64,000 nucleotides of DNA, from the IMG/VR virus record IMGVR_UViG_3300027759_003827, positions 1 to 64,000 of that record; one strand, 5' to 3'. Position numbers and translations under genes: made by a program. This DNA is from a virus. The notes beneath the pieces were generated by a model. The model was not told the origin of the DNA. It was given only the letters and a program-made list of their open reading frames with translations, and did not search any database. Shown here piece after piece: positions 49,921 to 63,001 of the stretch. Each line of letters starts with the position of its first letter. The first letter of the stretch is position 1.

Positions 49921-50322
49921 TTATAATTCTTTTTGTTCGTTAAGGTCTGTTACAAAATAATGATCACCTGTGATGTCACCTTTTTTTAATTCTGCTTCCG
50001 TCTCTTTAAATACTTCCGCAATCGGATTTTCTGGTACAATTTTACTGTAAACGTCTTGCTCTTTTACGATAAAGTAATCTTCTCCCTCTACAGTTATTGA
50101 TACAGATCCCATTTTCGGAATCAATACCTTATCTCCAACTGTTAGAGCCGAGTCTACATACTTATCAGAGTTATAGTTATATACTCTTGAAGTAGCTATC
50201 ACTTCTCCTAATTCAGGTCTTTCTTTACCTAAGTCAGGTATAATGATATTACCTACTGTTTGTTCTTCTTCTTCGATTGGCTTAAGAACTAAATAGCCGT
50301 TAAGTGGATTTAATTTACTCAT
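49921..50322 (-). CDS. groS: Co-chaperonin GroES with C-terminal extension
   Basis: 133 residues. LNGYLVLKPIEEEEQTVGNI then IIPD, the mobile loop, GEVIATSRVYNY and GDKVLIPKMGS are GroES-like for about 95 residues. An added acidic tail of about 38 residues (AEVFKETEAELKKGDITGDH...) is absent from host GroES, perhaps to fit a phage-specific ring or substrate. Confidence 0.88.
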   Translation of the reverse strand: MSKLNPLNGYLVLKPIEEEEQTVGNIIIPDLGKERPELGEVIATSRVYNYNSDKYVDSALTVGDKVLIPKMGSVSITVEGEDYFIVKEQDVYSKIVPENPIAEVFKETEAELKKGDITGDHYFVTDLNEQKEL

Positions 50323-50558: not shown

Positions 50559-50987
50559 TTATTTAGCTTTTAAAGCTTTAGGTGTGCTGATTTGTATTTG
50601 TTTTACAGCTTTACCTTCTGCAACTGGAATGCTTAAAATAAGCAGTCCTTTATCTAAAGATGCTTCTAACTTACCTAGATCAAATTTAGTTGAAATCTTC
50701 CATGTAATGTTAAAAGAGGATCTTTTAATACCTCTGTAAATAGGAATTTCTGCTGGTTCGTTAGGTTTTTCGTATGTAATACGTAATTGGTCTCCATCGA
50801 CAATGATACTGATATCTTCTTTGTCAAGGCCTACTGTGGCTACTTCAAATCGAATGCCGTCTGTTGTTTCGTAAATGTCTACTGGGTGTGTGACTTTCTG
50901 CGTAATTGCAGAGAAGTGTGATTGTGTGTCGAATAAATCTCGCCATAATAGGTCGAATGGATCTAGCTCAAATGGTCTAAATGTCAT
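50559..50987 (-). CDS. hsp20: Small heat-shock protein Hsp20
   Basis: 142 residues. HPVDIYETTDGIRFEVATVG then LDKEDISIIVDGDQLRITYE is the alpha-crystallin core start; GLLILSIPVA is the ...GxLxIxIP end, with the I-x-V like C-terminal tail missing. Phage Hsp20 genes are known in large phages and protect new proteins. Bounded by inverted repeats. Confidence 0.9.
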   Translation of the reverse strand: MTFRPFELDPFDLLWRDLFDTQSHFSAITQKVTHPVDIYETTDGIRFEVATVGLDKEDISIIVDGDQLRITYEKPNEPAEIPIYRGIKRSSFNITWKISTKFDLGKLEASLDKGLLILSIPVAEGKAVKQIQISTPKALKAK

Positions 50988-54410: not shown

Positions 54411-54572
54411 TTATAATTCTTCTGCTATACCTAGCAACTCGGCTATTATAAGTAGGGCACCAGCTAAAGGTAACCTACCGAATATTAAAGCAAATCCTGC
54501 TCCAAATCTAAAGCCTGATTTAACTAAGCTAATGTAAAAATGCCAATTTGTATGTGATTCTTTTTGTTGCAT
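54411..54572 (-). CDS. Conserved 53-residue membrane-associated protein
   Basis: ATG at 54570-54572, TAA at 54411-54413. MQQKESHTNWHFYISLVKSG then FRFGAGFALIFGRLPLAG and LLIIAELLGIAEEL fits a short family found in phages and bacteria (H-x-YiSl-x-KSx-R...aG...AE-x-LGI-EEL). Function unknown. One-base overlap with the dCTP-deaminase-like gene. Confidence 0.68.
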   Translation of the reverse strand: MQQKESHTNWHFYISLVKSGFRFGAGFALIFGRLPLAGALLIIAELLGIAEEL

Positions 54573-55078
54573 TACCCTCTTTGTTTATCGTTTTGCCATT
54601 GTCCATCATATAATTCAGCAACCTCTTCACACTTATGGAAGTATATTTGAGCTACTCTAGCATCTTCTTCAATAAAGATAGTTTCATTTACTCTCATTAC
54701 ACAGCCCATAAATTCAGTTTCAAATCCTGGATCGAATACTGATGAGTGAATAATTGTACCGTTTCTTAATAGAGAGGATCTTTGTCTAATTAAGCCTACA
54801 TAGTCTGCAGGTAACTTGCATCCTTCCCAGAAAGTAATTTCATAGGTACCAGGATATAATAACCATCCCATATTACCGTCTAACTGTACTTTCTTAGTCT
54901 CAGTATAGACTGCTAAGTTAGTTTTATTCTTTAATACTACTCCAAATTTATCTTGAGGATTCTGTCTAATTTGTTTAACTGTCTGTAAAGATAAATCATA
55001 CCCTACTTGAGCTTTACCTTTAGACTGCTGTTCTAATTTAAGTAGACCTTTCTCTACTATTTGATCTGCATTCAGCAT
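54572..55078 (-). CDS. dCTP deaminase/dUTPase-superfamily protein
   Basis: 168 residues. RQRSSLLRNGTIIHSSVFDP then GFETEFMG gives the Arg-Ser-Ser and DPGF motifs of dCTP deaminase/dUTPase. The end ARVAQIYFHKCEEVAELYDG then QWQNDKQ fits the C-terminal P-loop-like part of dCTP deaminase, which yields dUMP/dUTP. Nucleotide supply. Confidence 0.85.
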   Translation of the reverse strand: MLNADQIVEKGLLKLEQQSKGKAQVGYDLSLQTVKQIRQNPQDKFGVVLKNKTNLAVYTETKKVQLDGNMGWLLYPGTYEITFWEGCKLPADYVGLIRQRSSLLRNGTIIHSSVFDPGFETEFMGCVMRVNETIFIEEDARVAQIYFHKCEEVAELYDGQWQNDKQRG

Positions 55079-55080
55079 AA

Positions 55081-55248
55081 TTATTTTTTCTTTTTTGTAT
55101 ATGGAAACATTCTATTTAAAATATTCTTTCTTCTAGTACATCCACAATCTTCATACCCAAGCATATGAGCAATCTTATCTGCTAGTCTATCAATATAGAA
55201 AAACTTTAGCACTTTAGCAACCGTATCTCCTAGTCCTTGTGATTTCAT
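55081..55248 (-). CDS. Conserved 55-residue phage protein with CGC motif
   Basis: ATG at 55246-55248, TAA at 55081-55083. MKSQGLGDTVAKVLKFFYID then LADKIAHMLG and EDCGCTRRKNILNRMFPY follow a phage pattern I know (SQGLGDT-x-AK...DCGC-x-x-RR-x-xLN). Unassigned. One-base overlap with folE. Confidence 0.65.
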   Translation of the reverse strand: MKSQGLGDTVAKVLKFFYIDRLADKIAHMLGYEDCGCTRRKNILNRMFPYTKKKK

Positions 55249-55958
55249 TATTTACGTGGATAACCTTTAGCAAATTCATAAAATTCTAATCTAGCTGAAT
55301 CTTCATTTAAGAATGATCCGCTTAACTTAGATGTCTTCATACTAGCACCTTGATGCTTAACTCCTCTACAGCTTACGCAGTTATGAGTAGCTTCAATCAT
55401 TACTGCAACTCCTATATTACCTTCGCAAATCTGATCTACTGCATTGTGAATGGCTACAGTTAATTGCTCTTGAATTGCGCCTCTTCTACTAAAATGCTCT
55501 ACTATACGATTTAATTTACTTAAACCTACTACTCTACCTTCTAAAGTAGGAATATAAGCAATATGACATAAACCGTTAATAGTCTGATGATGGTGAGAAC
55601 ACATACTCGTAATAGGAATACCTCCTTCGAATACTACGCCGTCATAGCCATCGCTTGGAAAGCTCGTAACAAAATCTAATGGCTCATACCTACCTTTCCA
55701 TAAGTCATTTACATAAGCTTTAGCTACTCTTCTTGGAGTATTAGAACTATTAGGATCGTTCTCCCAGTCTACACCTAATGCAGTTAGAAACTTACCGTAA
55801 TGCACAGTAGCTTCTTCAATAATAGCTAACTTTTGCTTATCACTTAAAGAATACTGGCCGTTCTTAATAGCATCTCTTAAATAAGTGCTAATACCATTGG
55901 CGAAACCTGGTTGAGCTAATTCTAAGCTCTCAATATCTATGTTTTTATTTCTATTCAT
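55248..55958 (-). CDS. folE: GTP cyclohydrolase I
   Basis: 236 residues. SMCSHHHQTINGLCHIAYIP (zinc Cys and His), GLSKLNRIVEHFSRR (GTP binding) and SCRGVKHQGASMKT (second Cys) fit FolE. Makes dihydroneopterin triphosphate, the first step to both folate and 7-deazaguanine. Here it starts the queuosine-type pathway with queD, queE, queC. Confidence 0.96.
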   Translation of the reverse strand: MNRNKNIDIESLELAQPGFANGISTYLRDAIKNGQYSLSDKQKLAIIEEATVHYGKFLTALGVDWENDPNSSNTPRRVAKAYVNDLWKGRYEPLDFVTSFPSDGYDGVVFEGGIPITSMCSHHHQTINGLCHIAYIPTLEGRVVGLSKLNRIVEHFSRRGAIQEQLTVAIHNAVDQICEGNIGVAVMIEATHNCVSCRGVKHQGASMKTSKLSGSFLNEDSARLEFYEFAKGYPRK

Positions 55959-55966
55959 ATTGTATA

Positions 55967-56476
55967 TTATAAGTATTTTGAAATCTGCTCTAAACGTTCT
56001 TCTACCGTACCTGTTAAAGTTACGACTTTTTCTGCAGGGATATACTCTGCTATAAACTTTTGTATAATTCCGTCGATCTTAATCTGTAACTCAGCACTTA
56101 ATCTATCTGGATCATCTACAAAGTCAAACTCGATAGGAATATAAAAGAAGTACTCTACTTGATCTTTAGTCTTTTCGAATAACTCTCTAATCTCGTCAAT
56201 ATTAACATTAGGAGTTAAGATTCGTGAATAGATAATACAGTCAACTAAACTACGAGTACTAATTACATTTTTATGAGTTAAGTAGTTTTGATAAGCCCAA
56301 GCAGATAACTCATTAATTGCATACTGCTTCTCGTCATTAGATAACTCTAACATCTTACCAATCTTAATTACAGGACGCGAAAATCCGTCTGTAACATAAT
56401 AATCAGGAAATCTGGTAGATACCTCTTTTAATAAGGTAGTCTTACCAGTTCCATGCGATCCTATTAATATCTTCAT
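55967..56476 (-). CDS. P-loop NTPase, kinase-like
   Basis: 169 residues. GSHGTGKTTLLKEVS (6-20) is a Walker A; the rest (RSLVDCIIYSRIL; YIPIEFDFVDDPDRL) looks like AAA_28/deoxynucleoside-kinase-like P-loop proteins. Could phosphorylate a nucleoside or a modified base. Part of the 7-deazaguanine region, 8 bases from folE. Confidence 0.72.
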   Translation of the reverse strand: MKILIGSHGTGKTTLLKEVSTRFPDYYVTDGFSRPVIKIGKMLELSNDEKQYAINELSAWAYQNYLTHKNVISTRSLVDCIIYSRILTPNVNIDEIRELFEKTKDQVEYFFYIPIEFDFVDDPDRLSAELQIKIDGIIQKFIAEYIPAEKVVTLTGTVEERLEQISKYL

Positions 56477-56498
56477 AAATGTCTTTTAGTAAAAATAG

Positions 56499-57068
56499 CT
56501 ACTTTTTATCAAACTTCCAAATATTAGTAAAGAAATGTACCCAAGAACTTAGAGAAGTCTCTCGAAGTATGGCATAAGCTTCATCTATAGTATTTGCTCT
56601 GTTCATAACCTGATAAGCGGATACAATCTCACCGGCATCTAATTCCGGAATTACTTTATGAACTACTGATCCACAGTACGGATACTTCTCTTGATTTCCA
56701 GCAATATCCTCTTGCTTATTAAAGCCTTTCAATTCTGGATATACAGTAATTAGAGCTGGATGACCATTAAACATTTGGCCTTTAAATTGAATAAATACGT
56801 CTTCTGGAATAATTCGTAAGAATCCGTGTAACGTAACTAGTTCTTTTTCTAGTATTCCTGATCTTAAGTATTGATCTACAGTAGGCTTATTAGGAAGTAC
56901 TACTATCTCTACATTATTTTTCCCAAAGATTCTCATGTTCTTTTCAGAAATGTTAGTAACTCTATTAGTTACAAGTAAACTAGGGAGAATCCCAAGCATT
57001 TCACTAATAGCTATTACTTCAGAACCTGTCTGAGATACTAGTACTCCCCAATTGCTTAACACTTTCAT
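56499..57068 (-). CDS. PurN-like formyltransferase
   Basis: 189 residues. FLRIIPEDVFIQFKGQMFNG then HPALITVYPELKGFN is the N-x-HP active-site region, and GSVVHKVIPELDAGEIVSAY is the family's GxxVH-x-V...D-x-G-x-I stretch. The catalytic Asp is the D of ELDAGEI. PurN uses 10-formyl-THF. Placed between a QueF-like reductase and a kinase-like gene, it may formylate a base intermediate rather than GAR; sugar N-formyl transfer is another option. Overlaps QueF-like by one base. Confidence 0.78.
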   Translation of the reverse strand: MKVLSNWGVLVSQTGSEVIAISEMLGILPSLLVTNRVTNISEKNMRIFGKNNVEIVVLPNKPTVDQYLRSGILEKELVTLHGFLRIIPEDVFIQFKGQMFNGHPALITVYPELKGFNKQEDIAGNQEKYPYCGSVVHKVIPELDAGEIVSAYQVMNRANTIDEAYAILRETSLSSWVHFFTNIWKFDKK

Positions 57069-57985
57069 TATTGTCCCATTGCTTTTTTAGTATAGTAGCC
57101 TGTATCAATTAATGCACGAGGAATTAATTCTTCTCTAGTTGCACGAACAGGATTGATATCTAATGAACCTCGTCTTGCATACAACAACATTACTACACAA
57201 TCTTTAACGTCAGGATGCTTTGTAATAGCTGTAAATAACTTCTCGCTACAGAATTCATGAAATTCGTTTACTTCACGTAATGCAATTACCTCTTTCAAAA
57301 GACCTTGTAAATCTACACGTCCTTTCCTAGTAGTAATATGGAAATAAGCAGCACCTGTATCTTTCTGCTTTGTATGTCTACATCTTGATCTCAAGATACC
57401 AGTCATTACAGAGATATCGTCAGACGTTTCAGCAGGTATAATAGTAAAGTGATTTTCTTTACCGGAGTAATCGGTAATTTCCATCTCTTCTAATTTCTTA
57501 TTACCTACCATACGAAATAAATCGTAGTAGCCTTCTCCTGGATCGCCTTCGAACATTAATTGCTCTCCTTCTCTAAAGAATGATACTCTTACTTCTTTAC
57601 CAATGCATGCACTGATATCTTTCTTTACTTGATTCTCATAATTCTCAACAGCTTCAACAATCGTATCGCCCATCTTACACATATCGAATGTATTAAGGTA
57701 TAACTTAAACGATTTTGATTCTACCATAAATTCTGAATCAGCAGGACATACTATTTTTAACGTACCTGCAATAGGTAGGCCGTTATTTAACAAGAAGGTT
57801 GATTCATGACAATGCCACGTATCGTAACCTACAAATTCATCTCCTTTAATACCCCAGTCTCCACGAGCTAATGCTCTTGGCATAGGGTTTAATTGACTTG
57901 GATCAAAGGTGTCTGTATAGACTGCATATGAGTTAGCTGACCCTAAGGTTTTAGCAGCTACTTCTGACATATTACTTGCTGACAT
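57068..57985 (-). CDS. queF: QueF-like 7-cyano-7-deazaguanine reductase
   Basis: 305 residues, two-module length. ESKSFKLYL (89-97) is the QueF signature; C202 (SRCRHTKQ) and D209, seven apart, match catalytic Cys190 and Asp197 of E. coli QueF; NEFHEF (240-245) is the substrate loop. It should reduce preQ0 to preQ1 with NADPH. Overlaps DpdA-like by 14 bases. Confidence 0.88.
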   Translation of the reverse strand: MSASNMSEVAAKTLGSANSYAVYTDTFDPSQLNPMPRALARGDWGIKGDEFVGYDTWHCHESTFLLNNGLPIAGTLKIVCPADSEFMVESKSFKLYLNTFDMCKMGDTIVEAVENYENQVKKDISACIGKEVRVSFFREGEQLMFEGDPGEGYYDLFRMVGNKKLEEMEITDYSGKENHFTIIPAETSDDISVMTGILRSRCRHTKQKDTGAAYFHITTRKGRVDLQGLLKEVIALREVNEFHEFCSEKLFTAITKHPDVKDCVVMLLYARRGSLDINPVRATREELIPRALIDTGYYTKKAMGQ

Positions 57986-58754
57986 AATTACGGAATGTTT
58001 TTATATTTTTAAAGATAAGGTTTATTTGTTCTTCTGACAACTTAATATCTAAGTTATCAGCAAGTTTTGCTTTTGGTTTAGGTACATTTAAACCATGAGG
58101 TCCTAATTCGTTTCCTACCCATCCGTTAATAACAGGTGAGCTAGTATCTAGCGAGTAGATAAGTCCTCTTAGTACAGTATTTAGATAGTTAATTAGGATA
58201 AACTCTACTGGATTTTGACATCCTAGTAAGTGAAATTTAGGTAATCCGATTCCCATGTTGAATCTATTTGCATACCACCAGTTTAAAAATCTAGTTCTTA
58301 CTGTTACATAATCTGAGTCTTTAACTAGGTCAAAAGGTAATGCGATAATATCTACTCTCTCTTTTAGGTAGTAGTCGATACACTCTGCAATTTGCTCAAA
58401 GGTATCTCCTTGACATACGCCAATATATTTCTGTCCTTCTACTCTGTAACTACCTAAATACTCTTTTGCATTAAGTAAAGTTTGATCATAATCATTAACT
58501 ACATCAGGAAGTACAAGATGGGTAGGAAGATACTCTTTACCTAACTCGTATAACTCCTCCATCGGTATGGATCTACCTAATTCAAATGCTGAATTGTCTA
58601 ATATAGAGTATTCTGCTGTTTGTAGCTTCTTCTTATAAAAATCAGCATATTCTGTATCTAAGCTTAGTAAATGACCTAGTACATAAGGGTAATCACTTAC
58701 CTCATCATGACGATCAAATAACGCTTTTGGTATTTCGTGTGAAATTAAAGGCAT
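57972..58754 (-). CDS. DpdA-like DNA 7-deazaguanine transglycosylase
   Basis: 260 residues. ILDNSAFELGRSIPMEELYE, LVLPDVVNDYDQTLLNAKEY, CQGDTFEQIAECIDYYL and KFHLLGCQNPVEFILIN give the TIM-barrel order of the tRNA-guanine transglycosylase family in its short phage branch (DpdA). It swaps guanine in DNA for a 7-deazaguanine. Next to QueF-like and QueC. Confidence 0.82.
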   Translation of the reverse strand: MPLISHEIPKALFDRHDEVSDYPYVLGHLLSLDTEYADFYKKKLQTAEYSILDNSAFELGRSIPMEELYELGKEYLPTHLVLPDVVNDYDQTLLNAKEYLGSYRVEGQKYIGVCQGDTFEQIAECIDYYLKERVDIIALPFDLVKDSDYVTVRTRFLNWWYANRFNMGIGLPKFHLLGCQNPVEFILINYLNTVLRGLIYSLDTSSPVINGWVGNELGPHGLNVPKPKAKLADNLDIKLSEEQINLIFKNIKTFRNYVSK

Positions 58755-58757
58755 AAT

Positions 58758-59603
58758 TTATTTTTTATATTCTGATAAAACTTTTTCTACTTGCGTTTTT
58801 GCAAACTGCCAGCTAACAGGTCCCATTTCGTCTGCATACTCTACCGGATCAGGACGACCTAGCTTAATAAACGCTTCGATACGTTCTACTGATGCTGCTG
58901 ACTTATAATCAGAATACCAGATACCTTGAGTATCGGACCATGAATGTCTAATAAAGATCGGCTTATAAGAAGTATTCGTACGCTTATATACTTCATTAAA
59001 ATCTAAACCTAATGCTTCACACGATCTTAAACCATCTTCTAGAATTTCAAATTTAGTTACATCTAAGTAGGGGGTATAAACTGATATTAAATCAGCATCC
59101 CAATTACCAGCTTTAAATGCTTCCATATCTGCATCTCTAAATTCCTGACGGCAGTCAGGGTAAATTGCATGATCTCCTGCGTGAATACCCATTGCAATAG
59201 CTACTTCTTGGCCAATAGAACAATCATCCGTAATAGGTTTAGTTGCAATTGATAGAGCAGCTGCTTGAATCAAAGAGCTAAATATCTTATTACGATTGGG
59301 TACAACAGTTGCTTTCATATTATCCTGTTCGTAATGTCCTTCTGGTACATCTGCACCGCCTGTTACTAAAGCTGAGTTCAATAACTGTTGTAATCCATCT
59401 AATTTAATAACCTGGTACTTTACTTTTTGATTTTTAGAGCTTAAGTACTCTACTAAAGATTTAGCTCTTTCAAGCTCTACTTTATGCTTTTGACCATAAT
59501 CAAAGCCTAATGCTGTTACTTCGTAGCCGTTAGCTAATAAGTGTAATAAAAGAGATGAAGAATCCATCCCGCCTGATAATGATAAAACTGCTTGTTTTGC
59601 CAT
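58758..59603 (-). CDS. queC: QueC-like 7-cyano-7-deazaguanine synthase without zinc cysteines
   Basis: 281 residues. LSLSGGMDSSSLLLHLL (PP-loop, 8-24), VPNRNKIF and GIHAGDHAIYPDCRQEF match QueC. The C-terminal Cys quartet of QueC (C...CxxCxxC) is replaced: the region reads NTSYKPIFIRHSWSD, then WYSDYKSAASVERIEAF. So it should make preQ0 with an altered C-terminal site. Confidence 0.88.
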   Translation of the reverse strand: MAKQAVLSLSGGMDSSSLLLHLLANGYEVTALGFDYGQKHKVELERAKSLVEYLSSKNQKVKYQVIKLDGLQQLLNSALVTGGADVPEGHYEQDNMKATVVPNRNKIFSSLIQAAALSIATKPITDDCSIGQEVAIAMGIHAGDHAIYPDCRQEFRDADMEAFKAGNWDADLISVYTPYLDVTKFEILEDGLRSCEALGLDFNEVYKRTNTSYKPIFIRHSWSDTQGIWYSDYKSAASVERIEAFIKLGRPDPVEYADEMGPVSWQFAKTQVEKVLSEYKK

Positions 59604-59665
59604 TTTGTTTAAAATTTAAAATTTAGAGCGTATTATTTTGTACGTCGATTAGCTCTATAACCGAA

Positions 59666-59872
59666 TTATTTTTTATCTTCTTTACCGTTAAGGTCCTTCT
59701 GTAGAGAGAGTATTTGACTAGTAATGTTACCAACTAGGGTTCCTAACTGTGCCCAAATATCATCACACTCTTTCTCTAACTTATTAATGAGTCTTAGTTG
59801 GTATATCTGTAATCCTACAAGTATTAATATAATACCAATGTATAAATGTTCTGGTGTAAATGTAACTGTCAT
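59666..59872 (-). CDS. Membrane-anchored coiled-coil peptide
   Basis: 68 residues. A hydrophobic helix at 9-27 (EHLYIGIILILVGLQIYQL) then a heptad stretch ending LQKDLNGKEDKK. Short gaps to neighbours. Unassigned. Confidence 0.6.
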   Translation of the reverse strand: MTVTFTPEHLYIGIILILVGLQIYQLRLINKLEKECDDIWAQLGTLVGNITSQILSLQKDLNGKEDKK

Positions 59873-59884
59873 TAATTAAAGGTA

Positions 59885-60139
59885 TTATTTTTTGTTCGTT
59901 TCAACAACTTCATTCATAAATTCGTTAAACTCTAATGTTCCTGGAAATGCTATAAAGTTAGTATTATCCATTACTCTCTGTAATGCTTTAATAGTGAGGT
60001 CTCTATTCTTAGTATCAATTATTAAAGGTTCTAGAATATACTCTTCTGCCGATCCGTCTTTACGATTAAGGTAAAATAAAGTACCGGCTACCTCTCCTAA
60101 TGCTTCGTAGTATTCTTTAGCTGTTGTTGTAGACTTCAT
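59885..60139 (-). CDS. Unknown small protein
   Basis: 84 residues, alpha/beta, no motif recognised (ALGEVAGTLFYLNRKDGSAE). Overlaps the next gene by 23 bases. Unassigned. Confidence 0.6.
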   Translation of the reverse strand: MKSTTTAKEYYEALGEVAGTLFYLNRKDGSAEEYILEPLIIDTKNRDLTIKALQRVMDNTNFIAFPGTLEFNEFMNEVVETNKK

Positions 60140-60368
60140 AGTATAACTTTCTTATTTTAGCGCCTAATTCTTGATCGTTAGATGTACTTTTAATCATATC
60201 GACTTCTACTGCTAATAATCTTCTATCAGGAAAATTTATATCTGATTCTTTTCGTTGTTCATATTCGAAACCTAATACACATGCTAAGTGGTCGGTTCCT
60301 GCTAAGTAATCAAATTCAACTTGGTCAGTTGGTTTGCCACAAAACTGGCAAGTGTAAGGTGTGCTCAT
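60117..60368 (-). CDS. Small zinc-finger protein
   Basis: 83 residues. CQFCGKPTDQVEFDYLAGTD then HLAC is a CxxC...HxxC zinc site at 7-30, similar to phage host-take-over zinc proteins. The C-terminal half is helical. Confidence 0.62.
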   Translation of the reverse strand: MSTPYTCQFCGKPTDQVEFDYLAGTDHLACVLGFEYEQRKESDINFPDRRLLAVEVDMIKSTSNDQELGAKIRKLYYEVYNNS

Positions 60369-60373
60369 AACGG

Positions 60374-60946
60374 TTATTTTTTCTCTATTTCTATTATAAT
60401 ATCATCGAATCTACCTTTATTTTCTCTTAAATCAAAAACTCTATAGCTTTTAATCTTTGTTTTATCTACATAGGAGTCTATTAACTCGGTCCATAAAAAT
60501 TCCTGTACGTCTTCTATAATTAACTTTCCGCCAGGCTTTACCTTATCGATCCATTTCTGAGCGCTTATAACCATAGAGGCTAGAGTATGAGGTCCATCAT
60601 CGATTATATAGTCAAAAGAATTATCTTCAAAGCTATTAATGGTTTCATCTGAGAAGCCGTCTACAATCATTAGTTCTATTCTACTGTAATTTGATAGTGA
60701 TCTAGGCAAAGAGTCATTACATTCGATTCCGGTAATTTTTCCTTCTGTAAACCATTCACTCCATAGCCTAAGACTATCTCCCTGAGCTACTCCTATTTCT
60801 AATAGGTTAATATCGCGATCTCTATTTTCGAATTCACGCTCATAATACCCGCTAAGATAGCTATGATCAGTTTCTTTATCAGAGGTCCATTCTACATGGT
60901 GATTACTGTCTATTAACTTACTTGCGTTCAGTTCTGTTAGAGTCAT
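60374..60946 (-). CDS. Class I SAM-dependent methyltransferase
   Basis: 190 residues. LLEIGVAQGDSLRLWSEWF (SAM motif I) then ITGIECNDS, FDYIIDDGPHTLASMVISAQ and KPGGKLIIEDVQ fit a sugar-O-methyltransferase or class I Rossmann methyltransferase. Could act on a sugar or the modified base. Confidence 0.82.
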   Translation of the reverse strand: MTLTELNASKLIDSNHHVEWTSDKETDHSYLSGYYEREFENRDRDINLLEIGVAQGDSLRLWSEWFTEGKITGIECNDSLPRSLSNYSRIELMIVDGFSDETINSFEDNSFDYIIDDGPHTLASMVISAQKWIDKVKPGGKLIIEDVQEFLWTELIDSYVDKTKIKSYRVFDLRENKGRFDDIIIEIEKK

Positions 60947-60958
60947 ACTGTTGTTTTA

Positions 60959-61246
60959 TTATTTCCAAAATTGATACCAACGCTTTTTAGGAGCTGGTTG
61001 ACATTTACTAAAAGGGTTATCGCCGAATGATACTGCTTTACAGTACTTAGATGTCATCATGTTTAAGAATATTTCATGATACTCTTCGGGTATTGTATCA
61101 AAATCGGCTTGTACTTTAATATCTAAGGAAATACTTCTCTTACCGTTAACTACTAGTGTTAGTATTTCATGACACGTTACTAATTTAGAAGTAGTCATGA
61201 TTAAATTATTACCAGAACCTAAATTTATTTCTTCCATACTATACAT
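60959..61246 (-). CDS. Unknown protein with aromatic basic tail
   Basis: 95 residues; alternative ATG at 61237. Beta-rich (HEILTLVVNGKRSISLDIKV), ending APKKRWYQFWK, a tail that looks like a peptide docking site. Overlaps QueE by 8 bases. Unassigned. Confidence 0.6.
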   Translation of the reverse strand: MYSMEEINLGSGNNLIMTTSKLVTCHEILTLVVNGKRSISLDIKVQADFDTIPEEYHEIFLNMMTSKYCKAVSFGDNPFSKCQPAPKKRWYQFWK

Positions 61247-62072
61247 TTAAAGTTTTATTCCAGGCTGCGATATGCAATCTAGTTAATCCTCTAAATTTAT
61301 ATTTCTTAGCCATCTCCATTACAAATCGAGTTCTTTCTTCGAAGTTAGCTGCATCATCTAAACCTGGCATACAGATTACATTCTCTAAAGGAATATAAAA
61401 GGGTTCAATAAAGTCTCTAAAGATTTCTTTAACATCCTCTTCAGTACTAATAACAAACTTAAATTGGTAGTTATCGTGCTCCATAATACGATTAATAGCT
61501 TTAGGAACAATACGTTGTTTTACTGTCATACCCGAGTTATCCAACTTAGGTGAACAGTTAATTTGATCTAAGCTCTGAAATAATTCTTCTTCGATAAAAT
61601 TAGTACCGTTAGTTTCGATTTCATAGTAGGTATTACGCAAAGAACCTTCTATATCCATCCAATATTCAGTAAAGTTATTAATTGCTACTTGATGTCCTGC
61701 AATAGTAGGTTCACCTCCGGTCCAGATAACACGTACGCGACCATCTAGAATATCCTCGTATACTCCTTCCTCTTTAAATCTATCAAGTAAGTATTGAAAC
61801 TCTTTATCTTCTCCTCTCCATAACCACTGAGATGTAGAATCACAAGTCCAGGTAGCTTTACCTTCTTTAACTAAATCGCCTTCGAAGATTTCACCGTCTT
61901 CTAGTAATTGCTCTTTCATTAAATTATTTGTAAATGCTCTAGACATACCGCACGTTAGGTTACAAATACCTAAACGAACGAAGTATGCAGGAATACCGCT
62001 GCTTATGCCTTCGCCTTGAACTGTATAAAAGTCACTAGTAATAAGTAACTTATTTGGATCTATCTTACTCAT
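61239..62072 (-). CDS. queE: 7-carboxy-7-deazaguanine synthase QueE with expanded radical-SAM loop
   Basis: 277 residues. FYTVQGEGISSGIPAYFVRL and TGGEPTIAG (118-126) fit QueE. The radical-SAM cysteines are C37, C41 and C77 (CNLTC...WTCDS), spaced CX3CX35C instead of a short CX3CX2C-type loop, so an insert of 35 residues lies inside the iron-sulfur loop. NCSPKLDNSG follows. Converts CPH4 to CDG. Confidence 0.88.
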   Translation of the reverse strand: MSKIDPNKLLITSDFYTVQGEGISSGIPAYFVRLGICNLTCGMSRAFTNNLMKEQLLEDGEIFEGDLVKEGKATWTCDSTSQWLWRGEDKEFQYLLDRFKEEGVYEDILDGRVRVIWTGGEPTIAGHQVAINNFTEYWMDIEGSLRNTYYEIETNGTNFIEEELFQSLDQINCSPKLDNSGMTVKQRIVPKAINRIMEHDNYQFKFVISTEEDVKEIFRDFIEPFYIPLENVICMPGLDDAANFEERTRFVMEMAKKYKFRGLTRLHIAAWNKTLNV

Positions 62073-62220
62073 TAGTTACTGTTTTAGGGGTTTCTACTTT
62101 TTTAAATTGAGCCTTCCATTCAGATTTAGGTATAAACTTCCACTCCCTAGTAGCTTGATCAGCCTTTTCATTTGTTATTCGGATAATTTCTCCGGTCTTA
62201 GAACTCTTTAAACATTTCAT
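62065..62220 (-). CDS. Unknown 51-residue protein with Shine-Dalgarno
   Basis: ATG at 62218-62220 preceded by GGAGGAAACT, one of the few good Shine-Dalgarno sequences in the window, which decides the start (an ATG 12 bases upstream is also in frame). MKCLKSSKTGEIIRITNEKA then TREWKFIPKSEWK. Overlaps the QueE start by 8 bases. Not recognised. Confidence 0.6.
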   Translation of the reverse strand: MKCLKSSKTGEIIRITNEKADQATREWKFIPKSEWKAQFKKVETPKTVTNE

Positions 62221-62249
62221 AGTTTCCTCCATGTTTTATTGTGATTAAA

Positions 62250-62534
62250 TTATTTTTTATCTACATAATGATGTAGCTTATTTCTTAACCTATCAATTCG
62301 TATTTGACAGTACCATTTTCCCATATTACTAGATGCATTAGCATATCTTTCTTGCCAGTACTTAATACCTTTATTAGTCTTAGCATTAGCTTCTTCTAGG
62401 TAGTCTATATCCCAATAGCTATTATTCTCCTGTATCTCTTCATCGGTAGGAATATAAGGATTTTCTTCTTCCCACTTTTCAATAAGCATCTTGCGTCGAG
62501 ACTTCTCTTGTTTTTTTTCAAATTTCTTTTCCAT
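62250..62534 (-). CDS. Unknown basic helical protein
   Basis: 94 residues. Charged coiled-coil start (KKFEKKQEKSRRKMLIEKWE) and a Tyr/Arg-rich second half (GKWYCQIRIDRLRNKLHHYV). One-base overlap with QueD's stop. Unassigned. Confidence 0.62.
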   Translation of the reverse strand: MEKKFEKKQEKSRRKMLIEKWEEENPYIPTDEEIQENNSYWDIDYLEEANAKTNKGIKYWQERYANASSNMGKWYCQIRIDRLRNKLHHYVDKK

Positions 62535-63001
62535 TACCCTATATAAATTGCTGAGTTTCTTTTATTCTCAAAGAATTCTACTTGTGCTACTCTAACGCGG
62601 TTATTTGTCTCTTCCTGTACAAAAGTATTTATTTTACCGTAAATATACTTTGCAAATTGCTCTGCACCTACAGGGCCTTCAAGGATTCTTAACTGTACTA
62701 CTCCTCTCTTATCTAACTCTTTAAAGATCTCCAATTCAGGATCATCTGGTGCTAATACCGTAGTATGATCGAACATATAATCCATCCATTGCTTAGCGTT
62801 CATACCGTCAATTTGAGTTTTAGCTCTCTTCATACCGCCAAAGTCCCATACCCAATTTCTATGATCTAACTCTCCTTCAAAAGTTATTCTAAATTCAATA
62901 TCGTAACCATGTAAAAATCTACAATGCGTACCTTCAGCAGCCCATTGACGGAATACGGTACTAAACCCGTCGTATAATTTTGTTGATTGAAATTTGCTCA
63001 T
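62534..63001 (-). CDS. queD: QueD-like 6-carboxytetrahydropterin synthase, altered metal site
   Basis: 155 residues. C27 (THCRFLHGYD) is the catalytic Cys; D78-H79 (FDHTTVL) is the acid pair; WVWDFGGMK and GAEQFAKYI fit the family. The usual HxH zinc pair reads H31-G-Y33, and the first zinc His is missing (FRQWAAEG). This type is the short phage branch of the QueD family. Makes CPH4 from FolE's product. Confidence 0.82.
   Translation of the reverse strand: MSKFQSTKLYDGFSTVFRQWAAEGTHCRFLHGYDIEFRITFEGELDHRNWVWDFGGMKRAKTQIDGMNAKQWMDYMFDHTTVLAPDDPELEIFKELDKRGVVQLRILEGPVGAEQFAKYIYGKINTFVQEETNNRVRVAQVEFFENKRNSAIYIG

Follow-up and report, generated by a model that had tools for sequence, protein, structure and literature searches.

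Both the presence of dPreQ1, the deoxynucleoside of 7-aminomethyl-7-deazaguanine (preQ1), in phage DNA and the protection against restriction given by such bases have been published, and in the work of Hutinet et al. the QueF-like proteins of phages Dp-1 and HVTV-1 yielded dPreQ1 (PMC6884629). The present study concerns a cluster of 7-deazaguanine genes in bases 1–64000 of the 88,816-base IMG/VR virus record IMGVR_UViG_3300027759_003827, which comes from an uncultivated virus; this whole stretch of 64,000 nucleotides is referred to as the window. The cluster is read here, with a probability of about 0.78, as a self-contained phage pathway of 7-deazaguanine DNA modification that ends in 7-(formylamino)methyl-7-deazaguanine (fdPreQ1).

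A base of the fdPreQ1 type has probably been described already. A paper by Cui et al. from 2023, whose existence and title were confirmed via citations only, reportedly presents 2'-deoxy-7-(formylamino)methyl-7-deazaguanine and a predicted dPreQ1 formyltransferase named DpdN, and the DpdN/DpdA3 system reported there likewise brings together QueF, a formyltransferase and a DpdA of small size, from which the same base is predicted. Term searches of the literature for fdPreQ1 found no paper on the base. An earlier reading of the window, made from its sequence without database searches, had suggested a formylated 7-deazaguanine and taken it to be undescribed as a DNA base; given the paper of Cui et al. 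the latter appears wrong. The modification itself would then be of a known type, while the link to a kinase and a QueC lacking its zinc site are less expected. From the DpdN/DpdA3 system the window differs in representing a diverged clade that is uncultivated and whose QueC is of a zinc-less kind.

Comparison with isolated phages

Flavobacterium phage vB_FspM_immuto_2-6A (NC_055915; below immuto), an isolate, carries in order QueD, QueE, FolE, DpdA, a formyltransferase, a thymidylate-kinase-like gene, QueF, PolA and GroES. Its DpdA, formyltransferase and QueF show 35–41% identity to those of the window, but the order DpdA-formyltransferase-kinase-QueF differs from DpdA-QueF-formyltransferase-kinase in the window, and no QueC was found within the 24 kb read. 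The Campylobacter phage CP220 group, with 2'-deoxy-7-amido-7-deazaguanosine (dADG) and complete guanine replacement, resembles the window in having a homologous DpdA adjoined by an AAA_28 kinase, whereas translated search found neither QueF nor a formyltransferase, both of which are present in the window. Streptococcus phage Dp-1, in which dPreQ1 has been measured, and the QueF-bearing Vibrio phages share with the window the pathway to 7-cyano-7-deazaguanine (preQ0) and a QueF family protein but, unlike the window, gave no formyltransferase match in any case.

Gene content and proposed pathway

Genes of the window were assigned by Pfam, PHROGs and NCBIfam scans, QueE and DpdA being recognised via PHROGs. 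Those of the cluster are intact open reading frames (ORFs), all on the minus strand; FT is used as shorthand for the PurN-like formyltransferase.

62534..63001, minus strand, QueD-like 6-carboxytetrahydropterin synthase (PF01242, 1.5e-14; phrog_2389, 9.4e-42; 67% identity to immuto QueD)
61239..62072, minus strand, QueE-like radical SAM 7-carboxy-7-deazaguanine synthase of the phage type (phrog_2076, 1.4e-37; TIGR03963, 1.1e-10)
58758..59603, minus strand, QueC (preQ0 synthase), zinc-less variant (PF06508, 6.5e-37; motif comparison)
57972..58754, minus strand, DpdA-like DNA guanine transglycosylase (phrog_19058, 1.2e-26; homology to CP220 gp056 and immuto; fold)
57068..57985, minus strand, QueF, bimodular NADPH-dependent preQ0 nitrile reductase, predicted to make preQ1 (PF14819 (QueF_N), 2.4e-25, and PF14489, 2.8e-9; TIGR03138, 1.7e-49)
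56499..57068, minus strand, FT, candidate dPreQ1/preQ1 formyltransferase, DpdN-like (PF00551, 3.8e-8)
55967..56476, minus strand, P-loop kinase, AAA_28, of NadR-kinase/thymidylate-kinase fold (PF13521, 1.4e-7; fold match)
55248..55958, minus strand, FolE, GTP cyclohydrolase I (PF01227, 2.9e-44)

The sequence-only reading had placed FolE, QueD, QueE, QueC, a QueF-like and a DpdA-like gene within 8 kb in one direction, and the profiles bear this out with a span from FolE to QueD of 55248–63001 (7.75 kb), although the range of 56499–63001 that it assigned to this real cluster wrongly left FolE and the kinase outside. The spacing is operon-like. The links of 1–8 bases described in that reading are seen in the 8-bp gap between the kinase and FolE and the 1-bp overlap of QueF with FT, but not in the 14-bp overlap of DpdA with QueF or the 22-bp gap between FT and the kinase.

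In the proposed pathway FolE, QueD, QueE and QueC would convert GTP to preQ0, which QueF would reduce to preQ1. DpdA would exchange guanine in the phage DNA for preQ1 by a TGT-type (tRNA-guanine transglycosylase) covalent mechanism, and FT would use 10-formyl-tetrahydrofolate to formylate the exposed amine, which would yield fdPreQ1; this order of insertion and formylation is presumed. As a likely effect, the DNA would be concealed from restriction enzymes and preQ1 would lose its positive charge.

QueF, the formyltransferase and their linkage

QueF of the window aligns over its full length with the solved bacterial nitrile reductase 3bp1 (E 8.8e-54), and it has in common with immuto, aligned with 3bp1, both the sequence VESKSFKLYL, corresponding to the NADPH-binding motif ESKSxKLYL, and the catalytic Cys/Asp pair C202 and D209. 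On these residues and this alignment the protein is called QueF-like, and given the dPreQ1 obtained with QueF-like proteins from Dp-1 and HVTV-1, preQ1 is the expected product, as had been predicted from the letters of the window.

The best profile matches of FT are PurN structures (3kcq, 1.2e-16), and the triad N101-H103-D144, equivalent to the N-H-D of PurN, is kept in 84 of 84 non-redundant relatives. When aligned with an Acinetobacter PurN, FT carries a conserved SQTGSE at the place of GNGSN, the loop of PurN that holds the phosphate of glycinamide ribonucleotide (GAR), and its C-terminal part is shortened. FT matches in Acinetobacter were set aside, being purN beside purM among bacterial genes and probably host DNA filed as phage.

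The linkage of the genes was followed by three viral-contig searches, seeded with FT, DpdA and QueF, together with profile searches of all ORFs, and counted in 49 non-redundant viral loci with at least 4 kb of flank on both sides. Within this clade, defined by its DpdA type, FT and QueF were each found in 49/49 loci and the kinase in 47/49, in a near-constant order of either DpdA-FT-kinase-QueF or DpdA-QueF-FT-kinase, and the same gene set with adjacent DpdA, FT, kinase and QueF recurs in 47 of the 49, far above chance. The rates for FT hold when split by seed (37/37 for loci found by DpdA alone, 36/36 for those found by QueF alone), and FT lies beside DpdA and/or QueF in every fetched locus where the flank allows. 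The formyltransferase, noted earlier as embedded in the run, is thus an integral rather than an inserted gene. FT was absent in six groups of isolated phages and in two contigs binned in metagenome-assembled genomes (MAGs) that have this type of DpdA without QueF, and among the phages it was not found in CP220, Bacillus, phiST and MA9V-3 phages. Since FT is found with QueF in all 49 loci and is absent from the groups and contigs in which this DpdA occurs without QueF, it is part of the preQ1 branch, and its absence without QueF is what acylation of the amine of preQ1 predicts. FT is therefore a candidate preQ1/dPreQ1 formyltransferase, formylation of the preQ1 amine being the best reading of its kept triad and its distribution, and the most likely product would be 7-(formylaminomethyl)-7-deazaguanine in DNA. 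This agrees with the possibility of a formylated base raised at the outset, and would extend a modification of the formyl-preQ1 type from single isolates to a wide range of uncultivated viruses, immuto being an isolate already at hand.

Several observations weigh against this reading. QueF scores 168.9 bits against the equivalog model TIGR03138, below its cut-off of 293.45, and FT scores 45.3 bits against the PurN equivalog TIGR00639, far below 150.1, so that preQ1 or dPreQ1 is a candidate substrate only. QueC of the window is without the hallmark zinc site, and the loci were seeded from members of this family, so that the rates of co-occurrence describe the clade and not all phages. In phages, moreover, QueF and QueF-L are hard to separate by sequence (PMC6884629).

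QueC without the zinc site

The motifs of canonical QueC (PF06508 cluster 1) are SGGxDS, YxQxHxxE, VPxRN and YPDC, and the zinc motif C(x)8CxxCxxC is given as a hallmark (PMC13329287). All four motifs are shared by QueC of the window, as SGGMDS, YGQKHKVE (YGQKHxxE), VPNRN and YPDC, together with the essential tyrosine of TSY, but the zinc site differs: C(x)8CxxCxxC is lacking, and S, D, S and S stand where its four cysteines would be, within the conserved context NTSYKP...SDYKSAASVERIEAF. Of the phage QueCs compared (47 after removal of redundancy), 33 show the same S/D/S/S replacement, while all four cysteines are kept in Dp-1, 9g, BSP7, Youna2, CC_R7 and phi38:2. Cellular relatives share the loss. 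In marine group II archaea the cysteines are likewise lost from a QueC encoded in a FolE-QueE-QueC-QueD run, and QueCs of Pirellulaceae, Cysteiniphilum, Thiotrichales and Legionella are also without them. The zinc-less family (58758-59603 of the window and L208–L284) extends over phages, Poseidoniales archaea, Pirellulaceae and some Gammaproteobacteria. Six of the cellular genomes with it were searched (two each of Poseidoniales and Pirellulaceae, plus Cysteiniphilum and Legionella), and in these the zinc-less QueC is the only strong PF06508 match. Loss of zinc by decay was rejected, the replacement motif being conserved in 33 sequences and QueCs of cellular operons also lacking the cysteines. 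No report of a zinc-less QueC was found in the openly licensed literature, and use of the zinc motif to identify QueC would miss likely members. Zinc-bearing QueCs in loci of the other gene order (L057, L059, L076 and relatives) have Y[WH]DT in place of YPDC.

The transglycosylase

DpdA of the window gave no Pfam match and nothing significant in a sequence search of the PDB. Its AlphaFold model, built with 53 aligned sequences, has a mean pLDDT (predicted local distance difference test) of 94.8, and the top 13 Foldseek matches in the PDB were all TGTs or the DNA preQ0 insertase DpdA 7ui4, the best being the TGT 2ash (1e-7), with 7ui4 at 4.7e-6; the fold is thus a TGT-like TIM barrel. Across 84 sequences, including those of CP220, BSP7, Youna2, phiST and MA9V-3, the motifs LDNS, PD, QG, HLLG and SLDTS are near-invariant, with D53 in 83/84, D84 in 84/84, Q115 in 80/84, G178 in 84/84 and D203 in 83/84. 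We take the motif order to match that of TGT (acid/base Asp, substrate Asp, QG, LMG, nucleophile Asp) and the aspartates to correspond, by motif, to D102, D156 and D280 of TGT, which would make D203 the predicted nucleophile and D53 the predicted acid/base. To CP220 gp056 the identity is 34% by tblastn (profile E 1.8e-77). From motifs and model, the protein is predicted to insert a 7-deazaguanine in DNA.

In the fetched loci PolA often adjoins DpdA. Two tandem DpdA genes occur in one cluster (L105:6548-8228) and likewise in L107. A phosphoribosyltransferase gene (PF00156), which could salvage the guanine released by DpdA, is located in the vicinity of FolE/DpdA in roughly one in four DpdA clusters and in 42 fetched loci (for example L001:8881-9276 and L213:10189-10698); as a fixed partner such a guanine-salvage enzyme was rejected, with 20 of 75 DpdA clusters holding it and none found in the record of the window.

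The P-loop kinase

The AlphaFold model of the kinase (pLDDT 89.1) gave the NadR kinase domain, thymidylate kinase and deoxyadenosine kinase as top Foldseek matches. The kinase adjoins FT in 161 loci (redundancy not removed). A homologous kinase stands next to DpdA in CP220 and CC_R7, AAA_18 kinases are found just upstream of DpdA in Cellulophaga phiST and Chryseobacterium MA9V-3, and in Bacillus BSTP10 an annotated thymidylate kinase overlaps the start of DpdA, while the genes at the equivalent place in BSP7 and Youna2 show weak P-loop matches only. Among phages that have neither FT nor QueF, those of Campylobacter, Bacillus, Weizmannia, Cellulophaga (phiST) and Chryseobacterium thus carry P-loop kinases, of different Pfam families, beside DpdA. 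The kinase, embedded in the run as the sequence-only reading had noted, therefore follows this type of DpdA and not formylation, and as a partner in formylation it was rejected. Nor is it universal in DpdA systems, since DpdA of 9g and Dp-1 has no annotated kinase neighbour. No kinase was identified in phi38:2, L213 and L218. Loci of the L113 group, L076 and L083 have a conserved short ORF of ~83–96 aa in the kinase slot between FT and QueF (L113:11289-11552, L076:10471-10758, L083:3095-3343). In CP220 a fusion of an HD domain with an AAA_33 kinase lies directly upstream of DpdA (L196:8865-9896), besides the AAA_28 kinase downstream.

Firehammerviruses, whose DNA is fully replaced in guanine (PMC10273834), have this DpdA type, and for this reason the kinase may serve complete replacement. 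A tentative and rather doubtful extension is that the kinase is a required partner of base exchange in this DpdA subfamily, supplying a modified dNTP before replication or recycling nucleotides for full guanine replacement, with preQ0 coming from a zinc-independent QueC that marine group II archaea and Planctomycetes have as well. If true, 7-deazaguanine DNA modification would include a step that has no name yet, at work in phages from three or more bacterial phyla both with and without formylation of the base. No report of the kinase association was found in the openly licensed literature. The genes that track formylation (FT with QueF) are here separated from the gene that tracks the transglycosylase (the kinase), which bears on full guanine replacement.

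Alternative explanations

Complete replacement of guanine would also be explained if DpdA converted dGMP or another deoxyguanosine nucleotide to a deaza-nucleotide, which an essential kinase would phosphorylate and the polymerase insert. Such an exchange at the nucleotide level fits the fold of the kinase, that of a (deoxy)nucleoside or nucleotide kinase, its position beside DpdA, seen in 47/49 FT loci as well as in phages where FT and QueF are missing, the frequent neighbourhood of PolA and the fully replaced DNA of the firehammerviruses. However, DpdA and TGT enzymes work on polymers, two FT-bearing DpdA families and two MAG-binned contigs are without such a kinase, and Streptomyces phages encode the same kinase family although the 8 kb around it hold no Que gene. 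In addition, Crippen et al. in 2019 reportedly sought dADG phosphates in infected Campylobacter and did not detect them, and taken together an exchange before polymerisation is unlikely.

It is less probable still that FT is an ordinary auxiliary PurN which boosts purine synthesis as a GAR formyltransferase and has no relation to the base. The best relatives of known function are indeed PurN, and purine auxiliary genes do occur in phages, but a conserved SQTGSE occupies the site of the phosphate loop, the protein has a shorter C-terminal part, FT stands beside DpdA and/or QueF in all fetched loci with sufficient flank, and phages whose DpdA is without QueF are also without FT. A role of the pathway in host tRNA queuosine or the nucleotide pool, and not in phage DNA, is the most remote of these explanations: QueD, QueE, QueC and QueF belong to the queuosine pathway too, yet the transglycosylase is of the DpdA subfamily of modified-DNA phages (CP220 group) and not a TGT, the cluster holds no QueA or QueG, and replication genes are adjacent.

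Neighbouring genes and host

Outside the cluster the window also encodes four tRNAs, a tmRNA, a family A DNA polymerase, a ribonucleotide reductase and chaperonin genes. Two neighbours were considered with the cluster:

54572..55078, minus strand, dCTP deaminase/dUTPase-like gene (PF22769, 2.2e-14), which comes after FolE in 62 loci
60374-60946, class I methyltransferase

The former is a frequent neighbour of FolE outside the steps of the pathway. The methyltransferase is near, as noted earlier, but was rejected as a part of the pathway because it is not conserved: the profile matches only near relatives of the window and three other loci, and in 0 of 111 evaluable loci does the gene lie within 3.5 kb of a seed gene. 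In Cellulophaga phage phi38:2 a protein with a CxxCxxCC domain beside DpdA and QueF (L202:9436-10089) is a candidate for the dPreQ1 methyltransferase DpdM.

No obvious Shine-Dalgarno sequence was seen in the start regions examined, and because the gene set also parallels that of the Flavobacterium phage immuto, the host of the virus is likely a member of the Bacteroidota. Near the cluster a GroES-like Cpn10 gene (PF00166) and, identified by eye, a small heat-shock-like ORF are located at 49921-50322 and 50559-50987 of the window, and GroES and GroEL are found at the equivalent position in immuto.

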